Notes under the pieces: generated by a model | Told to the model about the DNA's origin: nothing | Seen by the model: only the letters and a program-made list of their open reading frames with translations | Databases searched by the model: none | Position numbers and translations under genes: made by a program | In this document: piece after piece, positions 1 through 62,992 of the stretch | How positions within the stretch are numbered: the stretch's first letter is position 1 | Layout of the letters: every line of letters starts with the position of its first letter | Source: Liolophura sinensis | Taxonomy: Eukaryota; Mollusca; Polyplacophora; Chitonida; Chitonidae | DNA length: 64,000 nucleotides | Assembly: GCF_032854445.1 (NCBI RefSeq) | Contig: NC_088302.1 | Location: 1,364,001 to 1,428,000 of the forward strand | Reading direction: 5' to 3'

Positions 1-888
1 AGGAAGGGTGTGTTGTAGGGAGGCTCTTACCTGTGCTAGTCCTGTCAGGTATCACAGGGTGTGTGATCAGGAGGGGTGGGTGGTAGGGAGCCTCTTACCT
101 GTGCTAGTCCTGTCAGGGTGTGTGGCAGGGAGGCTCTTACCTGTGCTAGTCCTGTCAGGTATCACGGGGTGTGTGATCAGGAAGGGTGTGTGGTAGGGAG
201 CCTCTTACCTGTGCTAGTCCTGTCAGGTATCATGGGATCTGTCATCAGGAAGGGTGTGTTGTAGGGAGGCTCTTACCTGTGCTAGTCCTGTCAGGTATCA
301 TGGGATCTGTCATCAGGAAGGGTGTGTGGTAGGGAGGCTCTTACCTGTGCTAGTCCGGTCAGGTATCATGCGATCTGTCATCAGGAAGGGTGCGTGGTAG
401 GGAGGCTCTTACCTGTGCTAGTCCGGTCAGGTATCACGGGGCGTGTGATCAGGAAGGGTGTGTGGTAGGGAGCCTCTTACCTGTGCTAGTCCGGTCAGGT
501 ATCATGGGATCTGTCATCAGGAAGGGTGTGTTGTAGGGAGGCTCTTACCTGTGCTAGTCCTGTCAGGTATCACGAGGCGTGTGATCAGGAAGGGTGTGTG
601 GTAGGGAGGCTCTTACCTGTGCTAGTCCTGTCAGGTATCACGGGGCGTGTGATCAGGAAGGGTATGTGGTAGGGAGGCTCTTACCTGTGCTAGTCCTGTC
701 AGGTATCACGGGGCGTGTGATCAGGAAGGGTATGTGGTAGGGAGGCTCTTACCTGTGCTAGTCCTATCAGGTATCATGGGATCTGTCATCAGGAAGGGTA
801 TGTGGTAGGGAGGCTCTTACCTGTGCTAGTCCTGTCAGGTATCATGGGGTCTGTGATCAGGAAAGGTATGTGGTAGGGAGCCTCTTAC
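1..888. repeat. 68-bp minisatellite made of PFAS exon 20-donor junction
   Basis: About 13 units. On the minus strand each unit holds the exon end (TACCACACACCCTTCCTGAT) and CACAG|GTAAGA, as at the true donor at 889. Point variants (GG/CC, GTCC/GGTC) are shared between units. Confidence 0.95.
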
Positions 889-1102
889 CTGTGCTAGTCC
901 CGAGAGGTATCATGGGGTCTGTGATCAGGAAGGGTGTGTGGTAGGGAGGCTCTCCCCTCTCCCTCAGGCCAGCTTGTTCTTGCTCCACACACTCGGGGTT
1001 ACACTGTAACCGCTCCAGCTGGAAGCTTGTCTGTTCCCACAGGTCCCTCAGTTGAGTCATCCTGTGGGTCAGTACCTCCTTAGTCCCCACGCTCACACTC
1101 AC
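889..1102 (-). CDS. PFAS: PFAS coding exon 20 (last one in window)
   Basis: Encodes [20 protein letters not shown], then [20 protein letters not shown] and ends LGTSTG. Donor is CACAG|GTAAGA; reading through it meets a stop within 14 codons. The remaining exons (amidotransferase domain) lie left of base 1. Confidence 0.92.
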
Positions 1103-4100
1103 CTACCAGTACACAAGGGATGTGGTTCAGGCACTCCGACACAAAATACTTATTTCTATGATTGATGGTTTATGTTATACTCAAGACTATTTCAGCTCTA
1201 CGGAGGAGGCCAGCATTATGGTGGGAGGAAACAGGGCAGAGCCTGTGGGAAACTGCTGGTTGCTGGCACATGACCTTCCTACATGCTGAAGGCACAAAGT
1301 AAGACTGTTTACACTGTTGAGGAGAAACCTGGTAAAGCCCGGAGAACTAACTATATATCATTTTGTCTGACCTTATTTGTTCATTTATTTGATCTGTGCT
1401 TAATGTTTTACTCATGGATATTTCATTTCTATGATGGAGGTCAGATTAACGAGAGAAGTCTGTAATATTTATTGACTTATTTATTTATATGCTTGGAGTG
1501 TTGCAAAGTCCACAATCTGAAATAAGAGTCTTTGACTTTCCAAGGAAGTACGAAAGGGTTAAGGAGTTTGCATCTATGCATGTCCAGAAACCCAGGGTGA
1601 GGGGTGCTGGGAGGAGTCAAATACAGGACAGTGAGACTGATTGATGAATAATGCCTTACCAATGGCTCATCAGACTTTCTGGATGATCCAATCAGGAAGC
1701 AGGGTACATCTTTGGACTGGTAAAACTTTGGTACGACATCTCTGTTGTAGTTTGGGATCTCAAGAACCACACCAAGCTCTTCTGCAAACAGTACTTCTAT
1801 CTCACTCCCTGCAAATTATGGTGTGCATCTGATAACATAATACATGTATGGTCATCTGATAACATAATATGTGCATATTCTCTTTCCTGAAACAATAAAA
1901 ATATTTCAAACAAACATTATGAAAAAGTGGGAAAGTTAAGTTGTCTTTGTACTGATCAATTGCTTCAATATTAACCCACCCTTCTCCACAAAAATATTAT
2001 GTCTGGCTCATCTTGACAAAAATATTATGTCGGACTCATCATGACAAAAATATTATGTCTGACTCACCATGACAAAAATATTATGTCTGTCTCATCATGA
2101 CAAAAATATTATGTCCGGTTCATCATGACAAAAATATTATGTCTGTCTCATCATGACAAAAATATTATGTCTGGCTCATCTTGACAAAAATATTATGTCG
2201 GACTCATCATGACAAAAATATTATGTCTGTCTCATCTTGACACAAATATTATGTCTGTCTCATCATGACAAAAATATTATGTCCGGCTCATCTTGACACA
2301 AATATTATGTCTGTCTCATCATGACAAAAATATTATGTCTGACTCATCTTGACAAAAATATTATGTCGGACTCATCATGACAAAAATATTATGTCTGTCT
2401 CATCTTGACACAAATATTATGTCTGGCTCATCTTGACACAAATATTATGTCTGTCTCATCATGACAAAAATATTATGTCTGACTCATCTTGACAAAAATA
2501 TTATGTCGGACTCATCATGACAAAAATATTATATCTGACTCACCATGACAAAAATATTATGTCTGTCTCATCATGACAAAAATATTATGTCTGGCTCATC
2601 TTGACAAAAATATTATATCTGGCTCATCTTGACACAAATATTATGTCCGGCTCATCATGACAAAAATATTAAGTCTGGCTCATCATGACAAAAGTACTGA
2701 AACCCTTGAAATGCATTCAGTGATTAACCATATTGTCTGAAACGCTCAAAAATTGTTACATCATTGAAAAAACAGAGGTTATTTGTATTAAAAGATATAG
2801 ATGCAAAACATGTAGAAGACAGTAGACATTTCCAGAAGAAGCATGTTTTTACCATCTTCAAATGCAGGAATGTCGACATGAATCCCACAATTCCCTGCAA
2901 ATGCCATCTCAAGGAGACAGGTAATCAGTCCTCCGTCACTGACGTCATGCCCTCCAGTCAACAGGCCCTCTGAACACAACACAATAATACTCAGGCTGAA
3001 AACGGACACTCATGTCTGGCCAGACCCAAACTTTGCAGTACTTGGCCATGTTATCAATGGTTAATGCCAAATCCACACACTACCCACATAAAAACACTCT
3101 CAATGAAGCCACAACTAAGCTACATACATGTGCAATGAAACTGAGCCAATCAAGTGGAACAGCCCACCACAACATGAAGGAACGCTTTACTGCCGACGAT
3201 GTAACTGCTGTTTGTCATATTATCAATACAATGACAGTTTCTGATTGGCCCCTTTGTAAGTTTCAGCAGCAAAGGTAATACTTACTAATTTAATTTGCTT
3301 CTAAAAATGAAAGCTTTTTGGGGAAAATTTTTAGGTCAAATCGAGTGTTGCCACATCTTTCAGGAAGAAAGTCGGCTTTCAAACTGAATACAAAACCATG
3401 CACAATGGTGTGATTGCGGGACACTAAATAGCCTTTACAAACAGCTCGCTACCTTGAACACGACTCTGTCTGACAATGAATGCCTGTACAAACAGCTTTG
3501 GGTCATACAGAATGCCTTTACAAATAGCTTTGGGTCATAACAAATTCCTGTGCAAACAGCTTTGGGTCACACTAAATGCCTAAATGCTTGGGGCCTCCAT
3601 GGCTCAGTTGGTTAGCGCCCTAGCCCAGCGTAATGACCAACGCGGTTGCTGTGAGTTCAAGTCCAGCTCATGCTGGCTTCCTCTCTGGCCGTATGTGGGA
3701 AGGTCTCTCAGCAACCTGCAGATGGTCGTGGGTTTCCCCCTGAGCTGTGCCCGGTTTCCACCCTCCATAAGGCTGGCCGCCATCATTTAAGTGAAATATT
3801 CTTGAGTACGGCATAAAACACCAATCAAATAAAATAAATAAATGAATAAACAAACAGCTCCCTACTTCGTACATGATTCTGTGTGACACTTTAGGTCATA
3901 CTGAATGCCTGTACAAGCTGCTTTGGGTCACACTGAATGCCTGTACAAACAGCTTTGGGTCATACAGAATGCCTGTACAAACAGCTTTGGGTCACACAGA
4001 ATGCCTTTTACAAATAGCTTTGAGTCACACTAAATGCCTGTACAAATAGCTTTGGGTCATACAGAATGCCTGTACAAACAGCTTTGGGTCACACAGAATG

Positions 4101-7100
4101 CCTTTTACAAATAGCTTTGAGTCACACTAAATGCCTGTACAAATAGCTTTGGGTCACACAGAATGTCTGTACAGGCAGCCTTGGGTCATACAGAATGCCT
4201 GTACAAACAGCTCTGGTCATACCGAATGTCTGCACAAACAACTCTGGGTCACACTGAATGCCTGTACAAACAGCTTTGGGTCACACTGAATGCCTGTACA
4301 AACAGCTTTGGGTCACACTGAATGCCTGTACAAACAGCTTTGGGTCATATTGAATACCTGTACAAACAGCTTTGGGTCACACAGAATGCCTGTACAAACA
4401 GCTTTGGGTCACACAGAATGCCTGTACAAACAGCTTTGGGTCACACAGAATGCCTGTACAAACAGCACAATACCTTGTATAAGGTTCTGCGTGACGTTGA
4501 AAGCCTGTACAAACAGTTGAGGGTCATCTAAGTCTGGGCTGTCATCTCCGAGCTGCTGATAGCACTGGGCTAAAGCTGACCCACCAAGTCGGTTGCGACC
4601 CCTAGAGAAAGGCACATACAGAAGTGCCCCTGTGAGGAAAGTACAAATACAGAGCATTACAAATACAGAGCACCATTACAAATACAGAGCACCATTACAA
4701 ATCCACACCCTGTACTCACATTATTTAATAATTTCTTTTTTGTTTTTATGTTAAACTCTACATGAGATCATATTAAAACATCTTGTGCAAAGAGCTGTAC
4801 ACAAAGAATACAGGAGTGTTTCACTGATACCATGACTGTCAGTTTTATGTTTGGAGGAAAGTGACGTTCCTCAGGTAAACCATCGACACAAGCTACTGAG
4901 AAACTTTCCCACAAGTGATGTACAGATTTGCTTTCACCTTCACACTGACGAAAACGGCCTCCCCATGTGTCCTAGAGGCTTTCACACTGGCAAAAATGGC
5001 CTGCCCATGTGTCCTAGAGGCTTTCACACTGGCGAAAACGGCCTTCCCATGTGTTCTAGAGGCTTTCACACTGGCGAAAATGACCTCCCCATGTGTCCTA
5101 GGGGCTTTCATACTGGCGAAAACGGCCTCCCATGTGTCCTAGAGGCTCCACACTGGCGAAAACAGCCTCCCCATGTATCCTAGAGGCTCCACACTGGCGA
5201 AAACGACCTCCCCATGTGTCCTAGAGGCTTCAAGGATAAGCCCAGCGCCGATCATGAGCAGCGAATGTCAAGCTTAAGACAACTGAGCGATCAATGGTGC
5301 CTACACCATGCCATACAGATATGTAAGTGTTTACTTACCCTTGTCATAGGTACACTTGAGGTCTGGTGTGATAGTGCCTTCATCATGCCATACAGATATG
5401 TAAGTGTTTACCTACCCTTGTCATAGCTACACTTGAGGTCTGGTGTGATAGTGCCTTCATCATGCCATACAGATATGTAAGTGTTTACCTACCCTTGTCA
5501 TAGGTACACTTGAGGTCTGGTGTGATAGTGCCTTCACCACGCCATACAGATACGTATATGTTTACCTACCCTTGTCATAGGTACACTTGAGGTCTGGTGT
5601 GATGGTGCCTCCACCAGGCCATACACATATGTAAGTGTTTACCTACCCTTGTCATAGGTACACTTGAGGTCTGGTGTGATGGTGCCTTCATCATGCCATA
5701 CAGATATGTAAGTGTTTACCTACCCTTGTCATAGGTACACTTGAGGTCTGGTGTGATGGTGCCTCCACCACACCACACCAATACCTAAGTGTTTACCTAC
5801 CCTTGTCATAGGTACACTTGAGGTCTGGTGTGATGGTAGCTGTGATATCTTCGCATCCAGCATACACAGATATGACCAGTGTGCCTACGACAATATAAAC
5901 ACACATTACTGTTTCATGGATAACAAATTCCTGAATTTGACTTGACATGTTCTATGTGTTAAATTCAGTTTCATAGAGGGTAATAAGGCATTTCAGTGGA
6001 TCACTTCCTCTAAAGTTTCCAATGTCACACACAGACACCTTACATTACACTCCAGGGTCCAAATGAAATACAAAATTTACACAAACAAGGTGTAAACGAG
6101 TGTACAAGGTAGGTGCACAGATAATAATTTACATGCACCAACTTTAAACCACTCAGATATATTTAATGACATAGTATTGAACTCCCATCAGAAATCAGAT
6201 TTGCCATGAGAACAAGGCAATTACCAAACCTATGAAATGTTAGAACAGTTTTACATGCTCAGTCCATACGCACAATGTGCATGTGCTCAAGGTTTACTAC
6301 ACGGACTGGCAATTACTGACCCGGAGCTTTGATGGTGTCCTGTCCAACCCTGGCTGCCATACTCAGCGAGTCCTTCCCACCGTCCACCGCAATCCCCAAG
6401 TCCTTCATGACAGCACACATGGCCTTACAGGCATCCACCAGAGCTGCCCCCTCCCCAGGTAACTTAGCAGGCCACATCCAGTTACCGCTACACTTCACAT
6501 CCTGCAACAAAGATATAAAACGCTTCACATCCCACAACAAAGATACAAACACTTCACATCCCACAACAAAGATACAAACACTTCACATCCTGCAACAAAG
6601 ATACAAACACTTCACATCCTGCAACAAAGATACAAAAAATTGACATCCCACTACAAAGATACAAACACTTCACATCCTGCAACAAAGATACAAATGCTTC
6701 ACATCCTGCAACAAAGATACACACTTCACATCCCACAACAAAGATACACACACTTCACATCCTGCAACAAAGATACACACACTTCACATCCTGCAACAAA
6801 GATACAAACACTTCACATCCTGCAACAAAGATACCAATACTTCACATCCTGCAACAAAGACACAAACATTTCACAACCCACAACAAAGATACACACTTCA
6901 CATCCCACAATAAAATTACACACACTTCACATCCTGCAACAAAGATACAAACATTTCACACCCACAACAAAGATACAAATGCTTCACATCCTGCAACAAA
7001 GATACACACTTCACATCCCACAACAATGACACACACACTTCACATCCTACAACAAACATACAAACACTTCACATCCTGCAACAAAGACACAAACATTTCA

Positions 7101-10100
7101 TATCCCACAACAAAGATACAAACACTTCACACCCCACAACAAAGATACAAACACTTCACATCCTGCAACAAAGATACAAATGCTTCACATCCTGCAACAA
7201 AGATACACACTTCACACCCCACAACAAAGATACACACACTCCACATCCTACAACAAAGATACAAACACTTCACACCCCACAACAAAGATACAAACACTTC
7301 ACATCCTGCAACAAAGATACAAACACTTCACACCCCACAACAAAGATACAAATGCTTCACATCCTGCAACAAAGATACACACTTCACACCCCACAACAAA
7401 GATACACACTTCACATCCTACAACAAAGATACAAGCACTTCACACCCCACAGCAAAGATACAAACACTTCACACCCACAACAAAGATACAAATGCTTCAC
7501 ATCCTAAAACAAACATACAAACACTTCATATGCCACAACAAAGACACAAACACTTCACATCATGCAATAAAGATACAAACACTTCACATTCTGCAACAAA
7601 GATACAAACAAAAGGTGTTGACACCTGAATCCTACAATATGTTTAACCTGAATCCTAAAATGTTTACAAATGCATTTATGTCAGAAGCTCGAACAACCCA
7701 TACAAAATGCTGAAGACGTTTTAAGCAAATATTTATTATGTGCATACAAAATATGAAAATTATATTTTTATTTTCTATCAGGTTTGTTTCATTGTCGGAT
7801 GCACTGAAACCAGCTGTACAAATTTTCACAATGGGATATACATTACCTTGAAGTCAACTAGCATGTGCACAGGTGACATGTTCACAGAACAACATCTACA
7901 TGCAAAGCACTTGTCTCTTTCTGGAACCATGTCTATCACATGTGTATCATGTCCATGTCCATGGAACCATGTCTTTCACACAGATGTAGAACAACAAATG
8001 TGAAGTACAACCACACATTCCCTGGCTATGTTGTGATGGTCTTGTGTCTAGGAGGTATGTAACAGCCCCTGATAAATGACCTAAAGTTTCGCCCATCAGT
8101 TTCTGTCGTAAAGTTTCCCACGGGCTGAGTTAGTGGAAAAATGACAGTAGTGGGTGATTAGCTCCCGGCCTGTTCCACCACCCTTCATGGCAACTATGGT
8201 CTCTAATCAGCGCCACGGGGGTTGAAGTCACTGCCAGTGAGTACAGGTCTCCCGACCAGCCCATGTCCCTTTATTAGTTTACTCATGAACTGAACCCAAC
8301 AAATTATGCAGTCAGGCGATGACTATTACAAACCTACAAATTGCAACCATGGTCTTGATCCATGGTCATGGCAAAAAAGCTATCTACAAATTGTACCATG
8401 TATGATCCATGGTCATGGCAAACAAGCTACGTACAAATGCTACCATGTTTGATCCATGGTCATGGCAAACAAGCTACGTACAAATGCTACCATGTATGAT
8501 CCATGATCATGGCAAACAAGCTACCTGCAAACGCTACCATGTATGATCCATGGTCATGTTAAATAAGCTACCTACAAATGCTACTAGGTATGATCCATGG
8601 TCATGGCAAACAAGCTACCTACAAATGCTACCAGGTATGATCCATGGTCATGGCAAACAAGCTACCTACAAATGCTACCATGTCTGATCCATGGCCATGG
8701 CAACCAAGCTACCTACAAATGCTACCATGTATGATCCATGGTCATGTCAGACAAGCTATGTACAAATGCTACCACATATGATCCATGGTCATGTCAGACA
8801 AGCTATGTACAAATGCTACCATGTATGATCCATGATCATGGCAAACAAGCTACCTACAAATTCAACCATGTATGATCCATGGTCATGTCAAACAAGCTAT
8901 GTACAAATGCTACCATGTCTGATCCATGGCCATGGCAAACAAGCTACCTGCAAATGCTACCATGTATGATCCATGGTCATGACAAACAAGCTACGTACAA
9001 ATGCTACCATGTATGATCCATGGCCATGGCAAACAAGCTACCTACAAATGCTACCATGTATGATCCATGGTCATGGCAAACAAGCTACCTACAAATGCTA
9101 CCATGTATGATCCATGGTCATGGCAAACAAGCTCCGTACAAATGCTACCATGTATGATCTATGATCACACCAAACAAGCTACCTGCAAACGCTACCAGGT
9201 ATGATCCATGGTCATGTCAGACAAGCTACCTACAAACGCTCCCATGTATGATGCATGGTCATGTCAGACAAGCTACCTACAAACGCTACCAGGTATGATC
9301 CATGGTCATGTCAAACAAGCTACGTACAAATGCTACCATGTACGATCCATGATCACGCCAAACAAGCTACCTGCAAACGCTACCAGGTATGATCCATGGT
9401 CATGTCAGACAAGCTACCTACAAACGCTACCATGTATGATCCATGGTCATGTCAGACAAGCTACCTACAAACGCTACCAGGTATGATCCATGGTCATGTC
9501 AAACAAGCTACCTACAAATGCTACCATGTATGATCCATGGTCATGTCACACAAGCTACCTACAAACGCTACCAGGTATGATCCATGGTCATGTCAAACAA
9601 GCTACGTACAAATGCTACCATGTATGATCCATGATCATGTCAAACAAGCTACCTACAAATGCTACCATGTACGATCCATGATCATGCCAAACAAGCTACC
9701 TGCAAATGCTACCAGGTATGATCCATGGTCATGTCAAACAAGCTACGTACAAATGCTACCAGGTATGATCCATGATCATGTCAAACAAGCTACCTACAAA
9801 TGCTACCATGTACGATCCATGATCATGCCAAACAAGCTACCTACAAATGCTACCATGTATGATCCATGATCATGTCAAACAAGCTACCTACAAATGCTAC
9901 CATGTATGATCCATGATCATGTCAAACAAGCTACCTACAAATGCTACCATGTATGATCCATGATCATGTCAAACAAGCTACCTACAAATGCTACCATGTA
10001 CGATCCATGATCATGCCAAACAAGCTACCTGCAAATGCTACCAGGTATGATCCATGGTCATGGTAAACAAGCTACCTGCAAATGCTACCAGGTATGATCC

Positions 10101-13100: not shown

Positions 13101-16100
13101 TGTAGAACTGGCGTTGAACTGTAGACACTCATTCATTCCAACAGAAAGATTTGCATAATGACTTATCTTAATCATACATATAAACCTGTTCAACCTGTTG
13201 TATCACTCTGACCAAACCAACAGTTCATAACACTGATTTAATGACCTACATGTAATTGGTACAAGTAAATACTCAGCAAGACATCCAAAAAATGGCATCA
13301 TATTTCATTCCTTGCAAATATTCATCAAATCACACCTTACATGATTGAACTGTTTAAAGACACACCTAGCTTCAGTCTCATTCCTCTGACACAGATACCC
13401 TGGAATGCTTTGTCTTAACACAGGACATGCTGTATCATTTTGGCTTCTGGTAAGGTCTCTAACAGTCAGGTAGTTTCCGGTCACCTGCTGAGATTAACAA
13501 GACGCTTGAAATGGCTTACAACACTGGCCCTCAGAGACAAGCACCTCCATGCTGAGTGAACCTAAAGCCGACTGAACACGCCAGTGTTTGTATCAACAGT
13601 CCATTCAGTCATCAGCCAAGCCCTGTCAGTCAGACTGACTGAAGACTAGACAAACACAGATAAGCCAATCAAGGGGCAGACTGGGATAAAGGTACCACCT
13701 GCTGGTGGAGCATTCACTGACTTGTCCCTCCCCCAAGCCATCAATCAGCAGTGTCTGTCAGCTTATGATTGGCTGGGTAAGAAGTATCCCTATTTTCCCA
13801 GTATATAATGATTGCTCTGTGTTACACCAAACACACTCAAACTTTTTTTTGAACCAGCATCATAACCATCCTACCAGGAGTTTTTGCACTGTCTCCAAAA
13901 TGTGCACCAGCAGTTTCAACAGCAACAAGAAAGTGGCTGCAAAGCTTCAGAGTGCAGAAAGCTGTTTTGAGAAAGCCTGTGACCAAATCAAGATACTGAA
14001 CACCAAACTGAGCGATCTGCGGCAGAAGTATGAGCGAGCCAGCAGTCTGGGGCAGAGAGCGTTTCGTTACAGTCTTCAGCTCAGGATAGCCACAGCCGAA
14101 GGCCTCAGAGACACATACTGCATGTTTGCCAGCAACATGGCCGCCAGAGTCAGCAAACTGAGGAAGAAACTGTATCCTCAGGTGGAACGGCTGAGGCGGT
14201 GAAATGACATGCCGTGATGGATGACATGGCCCAGGGACAGAAGATTACCAAAGGTCCTTTTCAGGACCAACCCACTCCTTTTGAGAGAGTTCTTTCTATA
14301 ATAAGCACATCATAAATTTTAAATCGTCACAGCAACATCGCCTCAAAATATTCACAATTTTCACATGGCACCAAAGGTTGATTTCCATTTCAAGAGGAAC
14401 ACACAACATCTAAATTTTAGTTAGTGTTGAAACAAAGTAAGGAGTTACAAACCTTGAGATTAGTGATCTGAGCAAAGACTAGATTTGTGAGAGCCTCTCC
14501 GACTGCCATCCTGGCCCCTTGAGCTGGCTCTATCAACCCTTTGATTGGCTGTTCTCCTATCGCCGTAGCTGACCCTGTCTGTAACACAGTGTGATGGTCA
14601 ATATCTCTTACGGTACCTTCCCTGTAACCTCTGGAACTATCAGGTGGATCTGTTCATATGTATTATGACTATTGTAAAGCGTGCCTCAATACTGTGGAAC
14701 AATAATCTAACAGTTTTATTTACTCTGGTAGACAATTCATTAGTCATGAGACCCATAGTAATTTTCATTTGTTAATTTAGAACATCGGACTGACTATAAA
14801 ATCACCTACCCTAAATCCTCAGCCTTTTCGCATATGAATGAGCAACATACTATGCACATAGGTAATTTATGCACATTTTTAATTTGATTTTGGAGACAAA
14901 ACAACATTGGTTGGATCATCCAGTTTCACAAGAAGTATAATTTTATCAGTCAACACATAACAATGCATTCAGGACATGCTTGAATAAACCGCTGGCAAAC
15001 ATGTGAAAAAGTTGAAGAATTACAGCAAATCCTGGGGCTTTATCTTTTCTGCCAAATGACGCCATGAGACATAGATATTACAGAGGTCAATGTTACCTTC
15101 CCAAAGTAAGAGAGCGCTGTGATGGCCACATCAGCCAGGGGCGTGTGGAGAGGCCCCACACACTGCTGCTGGGCAACTAGGCCTGTCACTGACCGGTCTA
15201 CCTGCAACAAGGGCAGTCAGCTGTGTAAGATGCTGGAGGGTGAAATAAGGTATCATGCAAACAGACCAATGTAACATTAACTATAGAACTGTCCAAACTA
15301 GAAGGTATTGGAACAACATTATATCTCTGTCCTTCCAAATAAGGTTAGGCAAGAACGTAACTCCTACTTCAAAATTTATGACAAATTTCAACTTCTAGAG
15401 AATCACTGCGCTAAATGCAATAATTCTTTGGCTTCTACTGTATTTCCTTGATGACCTAACAGCAACGCTACAAAAACTTCTCTGACATCAAGATAGAAAA
15501 CCATCAAAGGAGATCTATATGACCACATGACAGTTATTTATAACTGGTCCAATAGGTGATGGTGTCACACTGCAGTAGGTGGCCTGGGTGATGGTGTCAC
15601 ACTGCAGTAGGTGGCCCAGTAGGTGATGGTGTCACACTGCAGTGGGTGGCCCAGTAGGTGATGGTATCACATTACAGTAGGTGGCCCAGTAGGTGATGGT
15701 GCCACATTACATAAGGTGGCCCAGTAGGTGATGGTGCCACATTACAGTAGGTGGCCCAGTAGGTGATGGTGCCATACCTTGTTAGTGAGGTAGCGCTTAC
15801 TGGCCACGGAGGGGAGGCGCAGCACTCTCTGTAAGGCGTCCAGGACACTCAGGTTCTCAGGTAAGGTGAGTCCCTCTACGGGAGGCAAGGAACGCTCCAG
15901 CTTAAACACCTGAGGGGTGGGGAAGAGTGAAATTCAGGGTCAAGGACTTTTCCAGTCACAACACTCAAAACACCCATATGTGCTGACTGGTTGTCTGGAT
16001 GTAATGGTGAGAACTAAGCACAGGTTGTAAATAATACACAAAGAATTTCCTTAAGTGATAGTAATATTACTGTTGAGAGATTACTATACTACAAGAGAGG

Positions 16101-35340: not shown

Positions 35341-35361
35341 TTGTCACCCACAGACCAAAAG

Positions 35362-38044: not shown

Positions 38045-38524
38045 TGAAAGACCAATCACATCAAAAAATTAAAAAAAATATTTTCACTGTATCCTGATCC
38101 AGTCTGCTTGTAGGAGGATAGTCCAGCCAAATTTGTACTGCTACCTCACTGGATTGCCATGCCAAAGACACCAAATGATACTGAGGCCAGTTAGGGTACA
38201 CTAAGAACCACCAAGCTTTGTACCATGTGAAGTGTAACATCCTGATATAAGCACTATGACTGAGGAAAATCAACTATAAAGCCATTCGCTGAATTCATAA
38301 AATGGTTTTACTATATACTAGTACAAGCATAACAAACATACATACAGGATATATGTATGCAAACATCTTCATTAAAATGTCACAATGAAATTATCAATGT
38401 ATATGTATCTATACATGGCTGATGAAATGAGAGAATTACTTGAGCAATGCTGACAACATGATTCATAATATCACAAGGTTGTCTCAGATCATGACAGTGC
38501 CCCTTAACTACTTCAATGGCTGGG

Positions 38525-38880: not shown

Positions 38881-38963
38881 CCGTGTTTTGAATAATGCTG
38901 GTCATAACACAACTGATAAGACTCAGCTACCATTTAGAAGCACTGAGTTGCACAACAAAACAG

Positions 38964-42300: not shown

Positions 42301-45300
42301 TGTGTATGCCAAATAGAAAGCTATATGTGTATGCCAAACAGAAAGCTCAATGTGTATGCCAAACAACAAGCTCAATGTGTATGCCAAACAGAAGGATAAA
42401 TGTGTATGCCAAATAGAAAGCTCAATGTGTATGCCAAACAACAAGCTCAATGTGTATGCCAAACAGAAGGATAAATGTGTATGCCAAACAGGAAGCTCAA
42501 TGTGTATGCCAAACAAAAAGCTCAATGTGTATGCCAAACAGAAGGATAAATGTGTATGCCAAATAGAAAGCTCAATGTGTATGCCAAATAGAAAGTTCAA
42601 CGTGTATGCCACAGTGACTTATTTCGTTTCGATTGACACCATACTCCAGAATTTGTCACTTCAACTTCTTAAGCAATTTCACAGGCCCTAAAAGGGTTGA
42701 AACCTGTTTATTACCACCATGGCCCCAGGAGAGACGAGGGAATCTCCAACCCTGTCTCTTCTTAGCACTTAGTACAAGACGACTACATGAACATGCAGAG
42801 AGTTTATTCTGTCATACTTGATATAGTTCATATTTCAGTTTACATGTACCTAGTTCTCTTTTCTTGGAAGAAGATCTCAGATCTATGGCCTTTCGATTTT
42901 CAAACAGATCTTCTTTAGAGAACTCGACCTTTCCACAAAACACTGTAAACGTTTGTTTCCCTCTGTTTTGATTCCCGAGTTTTCCACATGAAAACGTTAG
43001 AAACAGTAACAAGTGATCTGTTACAGTCACACCAAAGAGAGGCTGTGACAGGACACATAGCACTGTGGTTGTCTCCCCTGGTTTGAGTTTGTCACCATCC
43101 TGATTTTCTTCTGACAGTTCTAATCTTGGAAATTTGAAGGCCACTGGTTGGTAGATCCAATCATCATCACGAGACAAGGTCACTGATTGGCTGGCATAGA
43201 GGTTTGTTTTCACTGGCCAGACAGACTTGGACAGCTGGTTTTCCTTCTCAAGACCAACATGTGATGGTAAACAGGCAGAGAGGGCTAACTGGCCTAATTC
43301 TCTGAAACATAGGGTTATATTATTTATACATCAGTGAAATCCCAGTATTTACTTCACTGATAATCTTCACTAGATAGATGTCACTTTGGTTATTACATTT
43401 TGCTATTACACTGCTGGAGACCTTGACCCATGGACCATGCCTCGTGGACCGCATCACAAGGCCCTGCACTTCAGTGCAATATATAGTTCGCGCATATGAA
43501 TGGAATCAGAAATACGACACAGATGCCACATTGCTTATTTTTTTCACGTATGGAGCAGATAAACTTATAAGCATTTATATACATGTAAAGAAAATGTCAG
43601 GATATAAATAATAAATAGAATATTGCACAGTGAAGGTTGAATGCCATAAATATTGTTCTCGTGAAAGGTAAAAAATGATAACCCACTTGATGCTTCGCGT
43701 CCCGTTGGTTATCATTTACACCTGTCACTCTAACAATATTTATGGCATTCAGCCTTCAGTGTGCAATATCCTCTATATAATACATGCAGTATTGTTTAAC
43801 ATACATGTAAAATTGTTTTGCATACAAGCTGTATTATTCAAATACATGTCGTTTAGTTTACAATACACCTTAGTATTGTTTAAAATACATGTAGCTTTTT
43901 TGAAAATACATGGAACAATGTTTAAAATACATGTAGTGTACTTCTGCCAACTAATATCTTTATATAATGTATCTGCCCACATACTTGTCTGACATGTTAC
44001 ATACTTGTCTGACATGTTACACACTTCCACCCCGATGACCCAACATCCATCACATAGCCTCTGCCACGTGTCCTTCACCTCCAGCGACGTTCCTCCAATG
44101 GGAGGTTCTGATACAGTCATGTAACCAGAGGAACCAAAGTTTTCAGGGTGTCCTAGCAGAGGCACCAAAGAAGGCTGACCAAAGAAAAAGAATTTTTGAG
44201 ATTAGCCAAGTGTTATTCAACATTTAAACTGATTAACATTCCAACATGTATGTGGCAGACATCAGCCAAAAACACAGAATAACATGGTTTCCTTTCTAGG
44301 TCTGCCTAAGTTCTGGTTTCCTATATCTTTGCGCGTCTTGGTTATAAAAATTGGCCACTGCTGCCAGCAGTTTGCGTCTTATCAATATCATTTCAGTGAA
44401 ATGTCAATGGCATATGTAGAGCCCAAAATTTGGCTTCATGTCACAAATACTCCTCCCAAAACTTCCTCCTAAAGAACAGGTGATTTACCTAAGGAGCAAT
44501 CATTGTCACCCAAAAGTTCACACTTCGGGCAAAAAACTCTCACTGGCTTGTCGCTGAAACCATGGTGCAGAGACCTGTATTCAAACCAAACTTTAGCATT
44601 TATTAAATAACACATTTTCCTTGATTCTGATCGATTCATCCACCTAATGTCATATTTTGTTTTGCTAATTTTTTATTAAAAAAAATGTTGGCATTAAATA
44701 TAACATTTTAAGACCCTCACATGCTTCTGAAAGTGCATTTTTACACACCAAAGTTTCAGTAAAACACAGTATCCAAGACAGGCCCCCGAGACATGGACTG
44801 CGCAATTCCGTCTATTATTAACTAAAGTCTAGGGAAATCTCACCTGGTCTGGGATGACTGAATCATGGTTGAGAGTCAAACGGTTGACCACATCACAACC
44901 AAGCTCGACCAATCGCTGTCTGTCGTGTGCCTCACTCGTTAACTCCACTAGTCTGTTGATGTCAGACTGAAACAGAAACAATTCATCTTCATTCACTTAT
45001 TCACATTTTTTTTTCTCCAAAATTTTCACTGCTTTATTTTAATTGCCATATTAGTAAGATTAGCAAAATTCTCAACAGGAGATTTTAGTTAGACATATTT
45101 TAGGGCCCACTGTTTTCTAAGAATCAATACAATATTGGATTTGGTTGACTGTGTGGCTTAAGCTTGTTTTCTCACATGTAAATCAACACAGGTGAGAAAT
45201 GAAAGCAGTGCAGCACTAAGGATACCTGAAGTCTCATCTGTAAGGCTTTTAAAGCTGCCTGTATTGAGGACATGTCTTCCTGGTTAGAACACGAACTTGA

Positions 45301-52199: not shown

Positions 52200-52284
52200 T
52201 TAACATGCTCCTTACAAAGAAACGTTGCACACTAAAAATGCTAGCCACGTTTAATGCCAATTTTCAGCACAAATAACGAACAAG

Positions 52285-52356
<72 letters not shown>

Positions 52357-52980
52357 GATAAGGTGGTGTTCAGTATAGAAAGACAAAGAAAGATAAATGA
52401 AAAAGCCCATAGCCGTCCACACCGGTTCATGCCTATTATAAATATACAGTGAATAAACATTGATTCTCTATTATATTAAATTCCAGAGAAATTTTGTCTA
52501 ATACACTAGGTCTGTACCAAGAATAACTAAGTTCCGGTGGTAAAATGTGCGCTGTCTGGAAAAAATAGTCCCACATGCTGAGTACTCAGTTAATACTTTT
52601 CGTAATATATTAGATTATAATCAAGCAAGCCAAATTTGTCGTTGTTTGAAGTGTTTTTTTTTTTCCTTTTAAGGATTGTAAGGTATCTAGTCAAAAGAGA
52701 AAGGACTTCTTTGGGTTAATCTCAGGTGAGATGTGACTAACGTGTAAATGCAATTTAATTCCGATATAGTCCAAACAGCAGTCAAACACTTTCCTGTAAT
52801 CGATAGCTTTTAAATGTAGCTCGGCACATGAAGATCTACAGAGCATTAAATAAAGTGAAATGTTGTTGTTCGGATACACATCAAATCTTAAACCAGAATA
52901 TCACTGCAGTTAACCAATAGCAGTCGTCGTAACAAAACAAATACGTCACGTTACCGGAAGTAAACGCAAAAAATATAAAC
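52200..52980. promoter_or_regulatory. Shared FANCB/MOSPD2 divergent promoter region
   Basis: Both start codons point outward from this 781-base gap. Near MOSPD2 there is CCAAT at 52914-52918, a CRE-like TACGTCAC at 52942-52949 and an ETS site CCGGAAGT at 52954-52961, with no TATA at a useful distance. That motif set is typical of TATA-less divergent housekeeping promoters. A 68-base (TA)n tract lies on the FANCB side. Confidence 0.6.
52288..52355. repeat. (TA)34 microsatellite
   Basis: An uninterrupted TA tract about 90 bases upstream of the FANCB ATG. Such tracts readily extrude cruciforms and vary in length. Confidence 0.95.
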
Positions 52981-53025
52981 ATGGGTGAAGTGGCAGACGA
53001 CGTTGACGAAACTGTCACCCCAGAA
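52981..53025 (+). CDS. MOSPD2: MOSPD2 exon 1
   Basis: 15 codons, MGEVADDVDETVTPE, then a perfect GTAAGT donor. The ATG (AAACATGG, A at -3 and G at +4) follows a CCAAT, CRE-like and ETS motif cluster. Confidence 0.85.
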
Positions 53026-56000
53026 GTAAGTATTTTGACAATATTTCCTCTTCACTGTCCTGCAAACTTTTGACACCGTGGTAAACCTTTCCTTACTGTC
53101 TTTTTCAGGATAAAGATCCGAGGATAGACAAGCTTCGACAAATGTTTTTAGATGAGTTTGCAGGTAAGGCATAAAGCAGATTTGACAGCATTGTGAGTGT
53201 CATTGAGCAGTGACCGGTGAATGCCTTATGGACGAGGGTTAATAGTTAGGACAAGTTTACGAACTGTTCTGCTGTTCGCTTCAATTACAAAGTGACATGG
53301 ATGTTGCAAGCATATATAGCTCCGTTCTGCACGGTATTAACACGTTGACAGACTCCCTTTGCTGGCTCGTCGTCATATGACTGAAAAATTGTTATGCACG
53401 ACGTTAAACCCTAAGCACCCACTCGCTCTATCTATTTGCTGGCAGAGACCCTAGGAGTAATCTCCCTTCTGACCACCAGTGAAATAAGTTTCAGTATTTT
53501 TATGGTCATCCTGCACATCTCTGTGGCTCGACTCTGTTCCTTTCACGTTTAGCCAAAGAGATACAGCTGGCTTAATTAAAATCAAACACACTTCCTGCAT
53601 CAAAGTCCAGAGTATTTTCGCCCGGCCCAAACATCACACCATCGTTTTAGTAACAACATGACAGGAATAATCTCCCTTGTGCATGTTAAGATTGGAGGAT
53701 GAAAATACTTTTGACTGCGAGCGACACAGTCTGTTTGATCTGAATTAAGCCAGCAGTGTCTCTGTGGCTAGTAGCAGAAGGACACGGTCCAAGCCATGGA
53801 GATGCGCAGGGCTTTTGCCCCCGAAACATCCTAATATTCTGCAATGAAAATGCCTTTGACTTGTTATATCAGCATTTCTGGAGGGAGTGTTCAGTGGAGA
53901 TCAGCTGGATGTTTTGTTGCCTACTGGTTCAGTTTGGGCCTTAAGTAAGTTGATTAGTCAGGTAACTGGAAAGGTGCTGTGGTTTTCACCAGGAATGGCC
54001 TAACTGGACAGGTGCTGTGGTTTTACCAGACATTGCTTAACTGAACAGGTAGTGTGGTTTCACCAGGCATGGCCTAACTGGATAGGTGCTGTGGTTTTCA
54101 CTGGGCATTGCCAAACTGGACAGATAGTGTGGTTTCACCAGGCATTGCCTAACTGGATAGGTGCTGTGGTTTTCACTGGGCTTTGCCTAACTGGACAGAT
54201 GCTGTGTTTTTCACCAGGCATTGCCTAACTGGACCGGTGCTGTGGTTTCACCAGGCATTGCCTAACTGGACAGGTGCTGTGGTTTTCACCAGGCATTGCC
54301 GAACTGGACAGGTACTGTGGTTTCACCAGGCATTGCCTAACTGGACAAGTGCTGTGGTTTTGACCAGGCAATGCCTACTTTACTCTACCCATAAACCTCA
54401 CCTAACTATTAAAATGCAATATTCTAGAGAATGGCTAACAACGTACTTTAAATCTTCAACCTTTTCAAGCACTTAAGCACTTTTTTGTGTGGAATTTATT
54501 CCTATAATTATTATGAAAGTGATGCTAAAAATGATTTGTTTGTGTCACCAAAGATGCAAGCTTCGTAAAACTGTGCAAATTATTTTACTACACCCCATAG
54601 CTCTCTCAGAATGTTTCAAAATATTGGTTGTAGAGGCTGTTGAAAAGGTTGGAAGAAAAGGTATGAAAAGGTATCAAATTAAATGAATCAGTATATTCTT
54701 TCAGGATATTATGGAAGGCTATGATGGCTTTCCATTGTTTACCTCTTGTTTGATTTCAGAGAATATTGAGAAGGGTCTATACGATGACCGCGACGTGAGC
54801 CGTGTCAAATGTGAGGACCAGTATGTGAGGTGTTTTGTGGAGGACAGAGATAAGCTGGAGGATTCCTTGGCTATGATGCATGAGTCCCTGAAATGGAGGA
54901 TGGAAATAGGATTAAATGGTACATGTTACTACAGGATTAAATGGTACAGGTTAATGATTAAATAATACAGGTTACTGCAGGATTATGTGGTACAGGCTAT
55001 TACAGGATTAAATGGTACAGGTCACTGTAGGACTATATGGTATGGATTACAGCAGGGTTAAATGGTTCCCGTTACTGCAGGATTGAATGGTACAGACTAC
55101 TGCAGAATTAAATGATACAGATTTCTGCAGGCTTAAATGGTACAGGCCACTGAAACATTAAAAGGTACAGGTTACTGCAGGATTAAATGGTACAGGCTAC
55201 TACAGGACTAAATGATACAGGTTACTGCAGGATTAAATGGTACAGGTTACTGAAGGATTAAAAGGTAAGGGTTACATCAGGATTAAATGGTACGGGCTAC
55301 TGCAGGTTAAGTGGTGCAGGTTATCAAAGGATTGAATGGTACACGTTACTTTAAGATTATGTCCGGGTTTCTCCAGGATTAAATGGTACACTCCTGATAA
55401 CTTGACTTTGATTGCATAATATCTTACTTGTTTAATATTTATTACTTTTTCTTTTCTTTGAGAAACTCATAGATTGTAACTCTGGTGGTTTGTAGTATGT
55501 GCAAATTCCGTTCTCTATTCTGTTTCTTTCTTATTTCAGATTTAACTGAAGATAACTTTAACCGATGGATGTGGGATTTAGGGGCTGTTTTCTTTCATAA
55601 CACAGATAAGGATGGACACAAAATTTGTGAGTGTTTGTGATCACTAGGAGTAGTTTTCTTTTTTTAAAGATCATTAAATGCAAGGGAAAGTCAGATGTAA
55701 TATAAATGTCCATTGAGTTTGGAAATATTGTAATTAACATGTCCGTTGAGTTCTAATGTGTTTTACAGCCTCTAAATATCTTCATGCCTCGATGATGCCC
55801 GATGTCATGAATTACACGAATTCTAGGGTAGTGTGATCAGCTTTATAGTTAAAGTCATCACAAACATGATACGTGTAACTTGTTTGATGATTGGAGTGAA
55901 GATGACTTTGTCTTGTTTTGGGGCTGGCATTGTTTGGGTATGGATGGTGCCTGGCTGCCAGGTGAAGGAGATAGTGACTTTAGCTCTGACTACGAACATC

Positions 56001-59000: not shown

Positions 59001-62000
59001 ATGCTTGATTGAAGTAAACTCAAATGAGTCAGTAATGCTAAACTGCTTGGTATTTATATTGATGAACATCTTCCCTGGAACACACAAATCAGTAATGTGT
59101 GTAAAAAGGTTTCGAAATTGTTAGGCATTCTACGAAGGAAGAGAGCTCGTCTAACATGTCACTGAGGTGATATTTTCTGTAAGCCTTATGTTCTTCTTCA
59201 CTTTGATTATTGCTGTTCAGTATGGGGAAACTGCTCAGTTAAAAATAGGGAAAGGATAGTCAAGTTTCCCTCCAAACAAACAGCTGCACAATATTGTTCT
59301 TAGATCAGCGACACATAATATCTATGCCCTTAAAGCAAGGACAAATTACATGATAGAAAGTTTTACACATATAGGCATCAAACTCTGGAACTGCCTCTCA
59401 ATACACATGAAAGAAGCCCCTTCCCTATCAAGCCTTCAATCATGCTACCTAAAATTACAGTTATCTGCAGCCCCTTCCCTATCAAGCCTTCAATCATGCT
59501 ACCTAAAATTACAGTTATCTGCAGCCTCTTCCCTATCAAGCCTTCAATCATGCTACCTAAAATTACAGTTATCTGCAGCCCCTTCCCTATCAAGCCTTCA
59601 ATCATGCTACTTAAAATTACAGTTATCTGCAGCCTCTTCCCTATCAAGCCTTTAATCATGCTACTTAAAATTACAGTTATCTGCAGCCCCTTCCCTATCA
59701 AGCTTGCAATCAGGCTACTTAAAATTACAGTTACCTGTAGCCCCTTCCCTATCAAGCTTTCAATCAGGCTACTTAAAATTACAGTTATCTGCAGCCCATT
59801 CCTTATCAAGCTTTGGATCACTTAAAATTAGTTATCTGCAGACAACAACTGCAATGTGCATGTATGCATGTATGCTTTCATTGTATCAACCATCTAGATA
59901 AAATCCTATCTCTCTTACCTTTTTTTTTGTTTAGAATCTAAATGTGATATGTTCAAACCTAAAATATCTGTACGTGTACATTTTTTTTTTAAATTTTGTT
60001 TATACTTAAATTTATTATTCTAGCAAACCTTTTAGTAAGGCTAGGCCCCTGTGACAATCTTGCACACATGTGCATTGTTCGAACCAAACAGAGGGTGGGA
60101 AAGGGGCAATCTCCCACTCACTTGGTCTGTTTTCTGTACATGTGTGTAGGAGTTTCCAGCCAGAAGGGATGGGGGGCAGGAAGGGGTCGGTAATGGGCCG
60201 TCTCCCACTACCCTACTTCTCCAGTTGGGAAAGTTTTGGTGACAGCACTATTGGTTTTGTTGCTTTTTGTAGGTATGAATGTATGTACCTTCACATTTCA
60301 AACTACAGGATGCTTTATCTTGTTTTATATATATTGATGTTTTTTGTTTTTTCTTTCCCATGTATTGTTTTCTTTGTGAAGGCCTTGGGGAAGAACAGTT
60401 ACGTTGTACATTGACCGAGCTATAAATACAGATATTATTATTATTATATATATATATATTATATTAGGGGATATCACTATATATGGTGATTGCTTTTAGT
60501 TCAGTTAGCTCTATTTCGGCATAATTTCGTAATAGTATGCATAAATTCCAGTGAAAAATTGCATTAAAGGTCAGAAAGTTTGAAGATTTACAGTACTTAG
60601 CGGATTAATGAGTGTGTGTTTTCAGGATTACTCTATCTGTTATCCAAAAGTCAGTAATGACATAGATGTGAAATGTTCTGTGAGTAATCACATAGAAATG
60701 AAATGTCTGGTGAGTAATGACATAGACGTAAAATGTCTGGTGAGTAATCCCATAGACATGAAATGTCTGGTGAGTAATGACATAGATGTGAAATGTCTGG
60801 TGAGTAATCCCATAGACGTGAAATGTTTGGTGAGTAATGACATAGACGTGAAATGTCTGGTGAGTAATGACATAGACGTGAAATGTCTGGTGAGTAATGA
60901 CATAGGTGTGAAATGTCTGGTGAGTAATGACATAGACGTGAAATGTCTGGTGAGTAATGACATAGACGTGAAATGTCTGGTGAGTAATGACATAGACGTG
61001 AAATGTCTGGTGAGTAATGACATAGACGTGAAATGTCTGGTGAGTAATCACGTAAACGTGAAATGTTTGGTGAGTAATGACATAGACGTGAAATGTCTGG
61101 TGAGTAATGACATAGACGTGAAATGTCTGGTGAGTAATGACATCGACGTGAAATGTCTGGTGAGTAATCACATAGAAGTGAAGGACACATGTACTCACTC
61201 AGCTGTTTTCTCTTGTAGTATTTGTCAAAGTCAAGGAATACAGGAAAGATTTGAATATGCTGCCAACAGTGAAGAAGTTTTTTGCTCTCGCCTTAGAACA
61301 AGCGTCGCTGGCTGCCCCGGGGGAGAGGATAGTTCTACTGTTTGATATGTTAGATACAGGATTTGCAAACCTGGTAAGCTGTAGCACGTAACTTTTTGAT
61401 GTATTAGACATGGGATTTGCAAACCTGGTAAGCTGTAGCACATAACTGTTTGATGTATTAGACATGGGATTTGCAAACCTGGTAAGCTGTAGCACGTAAC
61501 TGTTTGATGTATTAGACATAGGATTTGCGAACCAGGTAAGATGTAGCACATAACTATTTGATGTTTTAAACACAGGATTTACAAAGCTGTAGCATACATA
61601 ACTATTTGCTAATAGTTATTTGCTAAAACTACTTGGTATGTTAGACACAGATTTGCAAGCCTGGTAAGCTGTAGCACAAAACTACTTGGTATGTTAGACA
61701 CAGATTTACAAACCTGGTAAGCTGTAGCATAAAACTGCTTGATATGTTAGACACAGATTTACAAGCCTGGTAAGCTGTAGCACAAAACTACTGAATATGT
61801 TAGACACAGATTGGCAAGCCTGGTTAGCTGTAGCACAAAACTACTTGGTATGCTAGACACAGATCTACAAACCTGGTAAGTGGAGCACAAAACTACTTGA
61901 TATGTTAGACACAGATTGGCAAGCTTGGTTAGCTGTAGCACAAAACTACTTGGTACGCTAGACACAGATCTACAAACCTGGTAAGCTGTAGCACAAAACT

Positions 62001-62992
62001 ACTTGATATGTTAGACACAGATTGGCAAGCCTGGTTAGCTGTAGCACAAAACTACTTGGTATGCTAGACACAGATCTACAAACCTGGTAAGCTGTAGCAC
62101 AAAACTACTTGATATGTTAGACACAGATTGGCAAGCCTGGTTAGCTGTAGCACAAAACTACTTGGTATGCTAGACACAGATCTACAAACCTGGTAAGCTG
62201 TAGCACAAAACTACTTGATATGTTAGACACAGATTGGCAAGCCTGGTTAGCTGTAGCACAAAACTACTTGGTACGCTAGACACAGATCTACAAACCTGGT
62301 AAGTGGAGCACAAAACTACTTGATGATTTAGACACAGATTTGCAAGCCTGGAAAGATGTAGTACATAGCTATTTTGGATAACAAATTTTCTTTTCTTTTA
62401 TTTCAGGACATGGATCTTATAAAGTACTGCTTAACCTGTTTCAAATTTTATTTCCCAGGATTGTTAGGTATGTAGTAAGTGTGGCATTTTCCACAGTTAG
62501 CCTGAAGTGTTTGTGAATTTCCTGACATGCTTTATGCTTTCACGTCTGTATGGGCAGTATAATACCACACCATCCACCATCTTGTAAACAAGTCCGACCC
62601 TATTTTAAGCCCATAATGCATCATGCATGCAGATGATGACATCATTATGCAATCACTCTGTTGAATATGTCCCAGGAAGGATTGTGCATCTTCTGACGGC
62701 TGTGGTTTTGATCAACACAAAATAGAAACTGAAGCGTTCCAGTCATATGCATGAGGCCTCACCTGTAGGAACACATAGGCACATGTATCTCAACAACAGT
62801 TTCCATGTATTCATCTTTTTTTCCTGAGTTCATTTGATTTCCACCTTTATATCAACAGTTCTGAGGTCAAGGTTGGCATTAGGTTTCATCATCATCATGA
62901 AGTCTGATCTTTCTAAATGTTTTAATATGAGATGTCCTTCATTTTCTTTCCAGCATATATTCTTGTGTTTGAAATGCCGTGGATTTTTAATG
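52981..62992 (+). CDS. MOSPD2: Motile sperm domain-containing protein 2, N-terminal part (7 exons), continues past window
   Basis: MOSPD2 is an ER-anchored tether that binds FFAT-motif proteins through its MSP domain and carries a CRAL-TRIO lipid-binding domain at the N-terminus. The exons here give about 200 codons covering most of that CRAL-TRIO domain: a basic N-terminal helix (DKLRQMFLDEF), LYDDRDVSRV, SLKWRMEIGLNDL, RWMWDLGAVFFHNTDKDG, VKVKEYRKDL, VLLFDMLDTGFANLDM, KFYFPGLLAYILVFEMPW. The order and spacing follow human MOSPD2, including the strand-helix pattern VxxFDxxxTG and the FEMPW stretch. The MSP domain and tail anchor would lie right of 64000. Phases agree at all six junctions. 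Introns 3 and 5 are junction-derived minisatellites and intron 4 holds a retrotransposon relic. Another CRAL-TRIO protein is less likely because of the FANCB neighbour. Confidence 0.9.
53109..53163 (+). CDS. MOSPD2: MOSPD2 exon 2
   Basis: Encodes DKDPRIDKLRQMFLDEFA, between TTTCAG and GTAAGG, phase 1 out. Confidence 0.88.
53360..53425 (+). mobile_element. Tail fragment of a second SINE family
   Basis: Second copy, in MOSPD2 intron 2, better preserved (GACGTTAAACCCTAAGCACC). The rest of 53170-53970 shows nothing. Confidence 0.6.
53990..54375. repeat. About 38-bp minisatellite in MOSPD2 intron 2
   Basis: About ten units of TAACTGGACAGGTGCTGTGG plus TTTTCACCAGGCATTGCC. Confidence 0.93.
54760..54918 (+). 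CDS. MOSPD2: MOSPD2 exon 3
   Basis: Encodes ENIEKGLYDDRDVSRVK through HESLKWRMEIGLN. Donor AAATG|GTACAT. The sequence spanning the donor, GGATTAAATGGTACA, is repeated through the next 480 bases. Confidence 0.92.
54919..55392. repeat. About 26-bp minisatellite made of MOSPD2 exon 3-donor junction
   Basis: About 18 units of GGATTAAATGGTACAGGTTA plus CTGCA. The exon end reads GGATTAAATG|GTACATGTTA, so each unit copies nine to ten exon bases and the donor. Confidence 0.95.
55540..55626 (+). CDS. MOSPD2: MOSPD2 exon 4
   Basis: Encodes DLTEDNFNRWMWDLGAVFFH then NTDKDGHKI, between TTTCAG and GTGAGT, phase 1 out. Confidence 0.92.
56850..60447 (+). mobile_element. Decayed non-LTR retrotransposon (CR1/Jockey-like) in MOSPD2 intron 4
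   Basis: An endonuclease relic starts near 56990 (NVCHIMPKLDQ; later DFNVDFSK and LMDHIYVTS). Reverse transcriptase pieces follow: KYRPVSVLPILSK (about 58305), LVDFKKAFETVNHDI (about 58520), GVLQGSILGPLLF (about 58700) and FADDTT (about 58805). Many stops and frame shifts break the frame, so it is inactive. The conserved C-terminal tail (GIKLWNCLSIHMKEAPSLSS) ends at about 59410 and is then tandemly repeated. The 3' end has GACCGAGCTATAAATACAGA and an ATT-rich tail. Clade is an estimate. A Cys-rich frame at 56519-56710 may be further 5' element sequence; the left edge is not defined, and 55640-56850 shows no other feature. Confidence 0.85.
59405..59830 (+). repeat. 54-bp minisatellite built from the retrotransposon's coding end
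   Basis: About 7.5 units, each encoding APSLSSLQSCYLKLQLSA in the element's frame. The first unit follows the element's own KEAPSLSSLQ tail. Confidence 0.93.
60655..61180. repeat. 30-bp minisatellite carrying a perfect donor consensus
   Basis: About 17 units of ACATAGACGTGAAATGTCTG plus GTGAGTAATG. Each has CTG|GTGAGTAA. Lies just upstream of MOSPD2 exon 5. Confidence 0.94.
61219..61373 (+). CDS. MOSPD2: MOSPD2 exon 5
   Basis: Encodes FVKVKEYRKDLNMLPTVKKF through ERIVLLFDMLDTGFANL. Donor CTG|GTAAGC. In-frame read-through hits TAA 15 bases on. The final 36 exon bases plus donor are the founding unit of the following array. Confidence 0.92.
61374..62350. repeat. 53/54-bp minisatellite made of MOSPD2 exon 5-donor junction
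   Basis: About 18 units. The first ones repeat TTTGATGTATTAGACATGGG, ATTTGCAAACCTG|GTAAGC, a copy of the exon end plus 18 intron bases. Later units diverge (CTTGGTATGCTAGACACAGA) and alternate between GGTAAGC and GGTTAGC. Confidence 0.96.
62407..62467 (+). CDS. MOSPD2: MOSPD2 exon 6
   Basis: Encodes DMDLIKYCLTCFKFYFPGLL, between TTTCAG and GTATGT, phase 1 out. Confidence 0.92.

Follow-up and report, generated by a model that had tools for sequence, protein, structure and literature searches.

Minisatellites spanning exon-intron boundaries in genes of the chiton Liolophura sinensis

Why should the tandem repeats of an intron contain a copy of the splice junction next to them? This question is raised by a stretch of 64,000 nucleotides of the genome of the chiton Liolophura sinensis (C8:1364001-1428000; hereafter, the window), which carries PFAS, a FANCB-like gene and MOSPD2. 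A preliminary description, made from the sequence of the window alone, had listed eight places in these genes where the repeat unit of an intron holds exon bases, the GT or AG, and intron bases, and had suggested a process focused at donor sites. We find this structure at seven junctions of the window (six donors and one acceptor) and at five donors outside it. We consider it probable (roughly 0.7) that these arrays are 'mirages', a structure named in amphioxus, that is, minisatellites whose founding duplication chanced to cover an exon-intron boundary in introns rich in minisatellites.

Splice-junction copies in the introns of three genes

We modelled splice sites by splice-aware alignment of near-identical L. 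sinensis proteins to the DNA, which gave 33 exons and 32 introns (30 of them complete); the scripts scored splice sites with donor and acceptor weight matrices. The window proteins agreed with the L. sinensis records at 1061 of 1064 residues for PFAS (the remaining three fall in a false last exon of the model), at 546 of 546 for the FANCB-like protein and, over a part that extends into the flank, at 402 of 404 for MOSPD2. The window belongs to an assembly of 609,464,459 bases in 632 contigs, described initially under the name L. japonica (PMC11068029; correction, PMC12441733). Tandem Repeats Finder produced 68 rows that we merged by hand into 40 arrays with a period of at least 14, leaving out a TA microsatellite. 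These arrays total 23.7 of the 64 kb and occupy 42.6% of the intron bases and 3.4% of the exon bases. In the published repeat table (PMC11068029), simple repeats and microsatellites form a class of 0.08%, and the tandem arrays of L. sinensis may be hidden within its unclassified 14%.

To be counted in our anchored junction test, a copy lying in the junction's own intron had to score at least 5 net on each side of the junction. Such copies were found for 6 of the 32 donors (PFAS exons 16, 17 and 20, FANCB exon 4, and MOSPD2 coding exons 2 and 4) and for one of the 30 acceptors (PFAS exon 15), with scores of 26-100. Mismatched introns scored 15 or less (25 introns compared for the minus-strand genes, 5 for MOSPD2); three more junctions scored 11-12 in their own introns, within the mismatched range, and were not counted. 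A BLAST comparison of the 40 arrays with the 33 exons pointed the same way: six arrays had matches with E<1e-4, in every case with the neighbouring exon, on the same strand and at or near its donor end, and the next best match (E 0.006) was to a non-adjacent exon. The overlaps at MOSPD2 coding exon 2 and PFAS exon 15, the shortest (11-12 nt), missed this cut. The features concerned, with exons taken from the protein-based models, are as follows.

889..1102, minus strand: PFAS exon 20, true donor CAG/GTAAGA at 889/888 (the slash marks the boundary)
5..953, minus strand: PFAS exon 20 array, 68-bp unit, the first unit being the last 65-68 nt of exon 20
4474..4629, minus strand: PFAS exon 17
3432..4466, minus strand: PFAS exon 17 array (Tandem Repeats Finder intervals 3478-3581 and 3889-4466), 32-bp unit derived from the exon's 3' portion
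5801..5884, minus strand: PFAS exon 16
5294..5837, minus strand: PFAS exon 16 array, 77-bp unit made of the last 37 nt of the exon and ~40 nt of intron
6321..6501, minus strand: PFAS exon 15
6490..7610, minus strand: PFAS exon 15 acceptor-side array, 29-bp unit made of the intron end and the first 12 nt of the exon
44005..44174, minus strand: FANCB exon 4, in the numbering of protein P0121
43979..44026, minus strand: two-copy start at the FANCB exon 4 donor, 20-bp unit
54760..54918, plus strand: MOSPD2 coding exon 2
54908..55390, plus strand: MOSPD2 coding exon 2 array, unit of 25 bp that takes in the final 11 nt of the exon and the donor
61219..61373, plus strand: MOSPD2 coding exon 4
61337..62365, plus strand: MOSPD2 coding exon 4 arrays, units of 54 and 53 bp that take in the final 37 nt of the exon and the donor
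15545..15771, minus strand: PFAS exon 12 array, intron-only unit adjoining the donor, without exon bases
20234..21711, minus strand: PFAS exon 9 array, intron-only and adjoining the donor, with copies beginning at ~+1

Six of the eight places listed previously are thus upheld (PFAS 20, 17, 16 and 15, and the MOSPD2 exons numbered there 3 and 5, which are coding exons 2 and 4 of protein P0122), and PFAS 12 and 9, whose units hold intron bases only, are not. The two-copy start reported for FANCB exon 5, our exon 4, does span the junction. It was also correct that all but one of the arrays lie on the donor side (6:1, or 8:1 if PFAS 9 and 12 are included). The units of the junction arrays measure 20-77 bp in the window.

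Many copies in these arrays, both in the window and outside it, retain the splice signal, and some do not. The GT is kept in all 6 intronic copies at PFAS exon 16 (5 of which share an identical 9-nt donor), in 14 of 17 at MOSPD2 coding exon 2 and in 14 of 15 at MOSPD2 coding exon 4; at PFAS exon 17, the junction is spanned by two edge copies, with donors at 3453 and 3866. The extreme case is PFAS exon 20, where CACAG/GTAAGA occurs in 13 of 13 copies of the window part. The array runs left past the window for ~4 kb in total and fills most of intron 20 (4,030 bases), which contains 57 exact copies of CACAGGTAAGA downstream of the true donor, that is, 58 identical donors in a row. The row of splice-site copies beside the real site, as originally described, is present. 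In the acceptor array of PFAS exon 15, the AG is kept in 20 of 37 copies and lost in the two nearest the exon. This array also has a higher-order structure with a 486-bp period, AG-bearing and AG-less units partly alternating.

Origin and growth of the arrays

The exon had been proposed as the source of the copies because of its coding constraint. Accordingly, the copied exon ends at PFAS exons 15 and 16 and, less strictly, 17 encode residues common to most of 15 aligned animal proteins (the L. sinensis one included), and that of MOSPD2 coding exon 4 is partly conserved in comparison, by eye, with Haliotis protein P0124. The proposal holds well for the first two and partly for the others; at MOSPD2 coding exon 2, the few residues of the overlap are mostly not conserved. 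The end of PFAS exon 20 is a mixture of conserved positions (P, Y, F, DP) and a variable linker, with three residues unique to its own sequence among 60. Here, the close homology of the exon end to the array stops at -65, and the simplest founding block would comprise 65 bases of exon and three of intron (GTA). The donor used in the model, GTA/AGAG, would then be a hybrid of these three intron bases and duplicated exon bases.

In 4 of the 5 exon-matched arrays tested, the copies are more similar to one another than to the junction, and they share fixed differences that are absent from the exon. Apart from the match between the two pieces at PFAS exon 17 and that of an AT-rich unit with the TA microsatellite, the units of different arrays are unrelated. 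Together with the copied exon ends and the local specificity of the matches, this fits one founding duplication per site followed by growth inside the intron. The protein models, based on near-identical proteins aligned to the DNA, join at the exon-side donor. Use of the next donor copy shifts the reading frame for 5 of the 7 donors tested (PFAS 9 included), and read-through past the PFAS exon 20 donor reaches a stop at ~+30.

A simple series of events might account for these structures. A block of ~20-160 bp spanning the exon end and the donor would be duplicated once, by slippage or break repair. Coding selection would then hold the exon-side copy and its working donor. The copies in the intron would meanwhile increase in number and homogenise among themselves; the homogenisation is supported by the differences fixed in the copies and absent from the exon. 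Surplus donors lying downstream of the working one would be tolerated because the exon-side donor remains in place. Arrays covering an acceptor, by contrast, may disturb the branch point and tract region or add competing AGs, and would therefore be rarer.

Recurrence in other genes

Extending the home region by 50 kb gave 7 donors and one acceptor over 42 introns, against 1.7-2.4 expected when each array is reduced to one unit; outside the window, donor-spanning arrays are present at PFAS exon 23 and MOSPD2 exon 12. As an independent set, we listed 11 genes beforehand by their Escherichia coli homologues, regardless of repeats. We analysed metH, carB (two loci), gcvP, acnA, valS and part of scpA, in total 7 loci with 142 introns and 44 arrays that occupy 21% of the intron bases; alaS, glgP, pgi, pyrG and acs were left out, as were another valS-like locus and the remainder of scpA. 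Gene length was among the factors deciding which listed genes were analysed, and the repeats of acnA became visible after the list had been fixed. The count leaves out exons shorter than 30 nt and the two initial acnA pieces; 7 of the 142 introns, that of valS exon 5 included, have a weakly scored site.

Three of the seven enzyme loci, on three other contigs, contain donor-spanning arrays: metH exon 17, acnA exon 6 and valS exon 10, which retain the GT or donor in 2/4, 6/7 and 3/3 of the copies looked at. These three donors compare with 1.44 expected (P 0.18), and no acceptor-spanning array was found in the 142 introns of the seven loci, against the same expectation. Two other candidates were set aside. 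A fourth donor counted by the script, at valS exon 5, was dropped, because the model places it at a GC site and none of the donors within 60 nt scores above 2 (if it is kept, the count is 4 and P 0.058), and gcvP exon 8 was not counted, since its array matches the exon interior (BLAST 2.5e-7) and a junction copy was not found. The arrays outside the window have units of 84, 111, 47, 164 and 146 bp. The recurrence of donor-spanning arrays in this genome is thus solid. For all data, the donor:acceptor ratio is 10:1 (P 0.012), so that an asymmetry between the two kinds of site is likely, and selection against extra acceptors could explain it. Half of the donors (5/10) lie outside the discovery window, a weak excess over the ~2.0-2.4 expected (P 0.05-0.09), this expectation being an approximation in which the home figure is scaled by 11/12 introns.

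The acnA locus drew attention in another way: a search with the E. coli aconitase protein matches ~27 residues repeatedly in one intron (C2:19368954-19370182), mostly at multiples of 164 bp. A plain protein search is a fast route to such arrays genome-wide. It also calls for caution in annotation, where exon-like intronic copies can be called as false exons.

Comparison with known systems

The preliminary description knew of no named process for these repeats. Such a structure, however, had already been named. Ebner et al. (2010; PMC3087553) reported minisatellite-like duplications of exon-intron boundaries in the amphioxus globins BflGb6 and BflGb9, and credited the term 'mirages' to Canestro et al. 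(2002), for amphioxus Adh3. PGBD5 is a further mirage gene of amphioxus (Branchiostoma; PMC3902484), and troponin C is cited in the same article. In the globins, either boundary can be affected, reverse transcription PCR suggests regular splicing, and the mechanism was called unclear (PMC3087553). The chiton arrays share the defining tandem unit of exon bases, GT or AG, and intron bases, which PFAS 9 and 12 lack. Their unit lengths are similar to the published range of 10-160 bp (PMC3087553), the chiton maximum of 164 lying slightly above it; many copies retain splice signals while the models use the exon-side site; and the inner copies are homogenised to the exclusion of the boundary copy in the same 4 of 5 arrays. 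They differ in their host, a chiton instead of a cephalochordate, with several arrays per gene and in adjoining genes, in their strong donor bias, where the amphioxus globins show both sides, and in the 57 exact donor copies of PFAS intron 20, compared with at most 6 units in the quoted globin cases. Our literature search found no mirage-like report for a chiton or other mollusc, which is weak evidence. The chiton arrays are, then, new in their taxon, their number and their size, but not in their structure, for which a name exists from another phylum.

Boundary-spanning minisatellites are consequently not unique to amphioxus, the chiton having them in several genes on several contigs, and their presence in both means that the cause is general or that they arose more than once. 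In PFAS intron 20, where the donor used in the model is followed by its exact copies, nature has set up a test of spliceosomal choice between 5' splice sites of identical sequence.

Intron gain by tandem duplication, as in the potato RdRp gene (PMC4974935), shares the first step, the duplication including a splice site or AGGT. However, a copy of the exon end should then stand ahead of the acceptor, whereas in the chiton an existing intron is enlarged. At the acceptors of the six introns of the window with donor arrays, the exon end scores 1-3 in the anchored test (1-6 within 6 nt), as in other introns, versus 26-100 for the intronic copies; we see therefore no sign of a new intron. Splicing-active intronic variable number tandem repeats, such as those of TERT intron 6 (PMC3948165), have in common with the chiton arrays their tandem repetition within an intron.

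Donor sites as possible seeds and alternative explanations

The preliminary description had named as its own refuting test a comparison of junctions with random intron positions. In raw form, this test goes against donor seeding in the window, as only 6 of 32 donors lie in arrays when 11.8 would be expected (P 0.0035, fewer than expected; P 0.25 when the count is of donors having an array no more than 25 bp away, 10 in all). Long arrays inflate intron coverage, so we rejected raw overlap as the sole measure and used in addition a null in which each array is collapsed to one unit. The 6 donors then exceed the 1.0-1.8 expected (P 0.0007-0.004), and the single acceptor faces a similar expectation. 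Under fully automatic criteria (five thresholds, two nulls), 4-5 donors remain and P ranges from 0.004 to 0.08, reaching at most 0.16 when genes or arrays are dropped; PFAS exon 17 stays outside the automatic counts, those for the home region and for all data included, its Tandem Repeats Finder interval ending short of the exon. The proposed donor focus thus appears only once arrays are collapsed, and weakly outside the discovery region.

Several points count against our reading. Uniform seeding predicts no donor excess, yet all data together give 10 donors against 3.1-3.9 expected (P 0.001-0.006). Selection against acceptor arrays would draw on one array and a ratio. At MOSPD2 coding exon 2, the 11 copied nucleotides encode only about one residue common to Haliotis, and the excess of copy-copy over copy-junction identity is missing (0.753 v 0.776), in a test that left out PFAS exon 17 and FANCB exon 4. 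Moreover, the data come from a single haplotype of one chiton species. The excess, seen in the window, in the home region and overall, would be expected if donors were true hotspots, with tandem duplications starting there preferentially by a mechanism tied to transcription or splicing (a paused polymerase, nascent RNA or break repair), and 10 arrays begin or end no more than 25 bp from a donor, against 3.6 expected (P 0.0006). We nevertheless regard this explanation as rather unlikely. It was derived from the same window that shows the excess, and the independent set and the automatic counts give the modest P values reported above. The arrays cover 22.6% of the first 25 intron bases at donors (5.1% at acceptors), under the intron mean of 42.6%. 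The sense-strand GC skew of the seven junction arrays runs from -0.35 (PFAS exon 20) to 0.70 (the acceptor array), with three well above the intron median of 0.05, so that the R-loops invoked earlier gain no consistent support either. Finally, a 54-bp array at 59415-59811 (plus strand, with pieces at 57153-59350) begins, by eye, at the apparent coding end of a broken reverse transcriptase resembling those of long interspersed nuclear elements, so that seeding is not restricted to splice sites; the short pieces of this area gave no match in a Pfam search. The broader claim that, in animal genomes rich in minisatellites, 5' splice sites act as mutational seeds of tandem duplications by a mechanism tied to transcription or splicing, which would have given rise to the same mirages independently in chitons and amphioxus, seems doubtful to us for the present; if true, introns would be lengthened and exon boundaries moved by this route, as at PFAS exon 20.

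Retention of the arrays for a function, such as local U1 binding that guards the transcript from early polyadenylation or reinforcement of a weak donor, might be read from the invariant donor columns in the window copies of PFAS exon 20 and from its exact copies over 4 kb. It is very unlikely, since array donors are no weaker than array-free ones (6 v 26, Mann-Whitney P 0.62) and, in five donor arrays including PFAS 9, the donor columns do not clearly stand out by conservation from the remainder of the unit, variation being equally low or lower in 16-76% of windows of the same size. We also looked in the array copies for purging of decoy donors and saw none. The decoy acceptors of PFAS exon 15, on the other hand, look degraded, their site columns varying at least as much as ~97% of equal-sized windows, in one array with few independent events. 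Short repeats falsely expanded or collapsed in an assembly made from 14x HiFi reads of 8.3 kb mean length (PMC11068029) could make copy numbers inexact, but an artefact as the origin of the arrays is most improbable: their copies differ among themselves, the longest junction array (~4 kb) does not reach the mean read length, and similar structures in amphioxus PGBD5 were confirmed by resequencing (PMC3902484).

Further features of the window

Protein P0121 is annotated as "uncharacterized" in the database. The name FANCB is the label of the preliminary description and fits human FANCB. A 437-codon open reading frame on the minus strand (50889-52199), absent from P0121 and without match in Pfam and PDB searches, resembles by eye the N-terminal part of FANCB. 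The public model of the FANCB-like gene may thus be incomplete; this 5' exon was excluded from every count. Intron 4 of the same gene contains a near-palindrome of 168 bases (43611-43778; 79% self-complementary).

Between genes, a 2.7-kb array of 33-bp units (35369-38045) has long open reading frames, of 499 and 399 codons, on the two strands and is an annotation trap. Dispersed repeats in inverted orientation also occur, at 3636-3739 and 25242-25345 (86%) and at 3741-3829 and 34944-35032 (76%).

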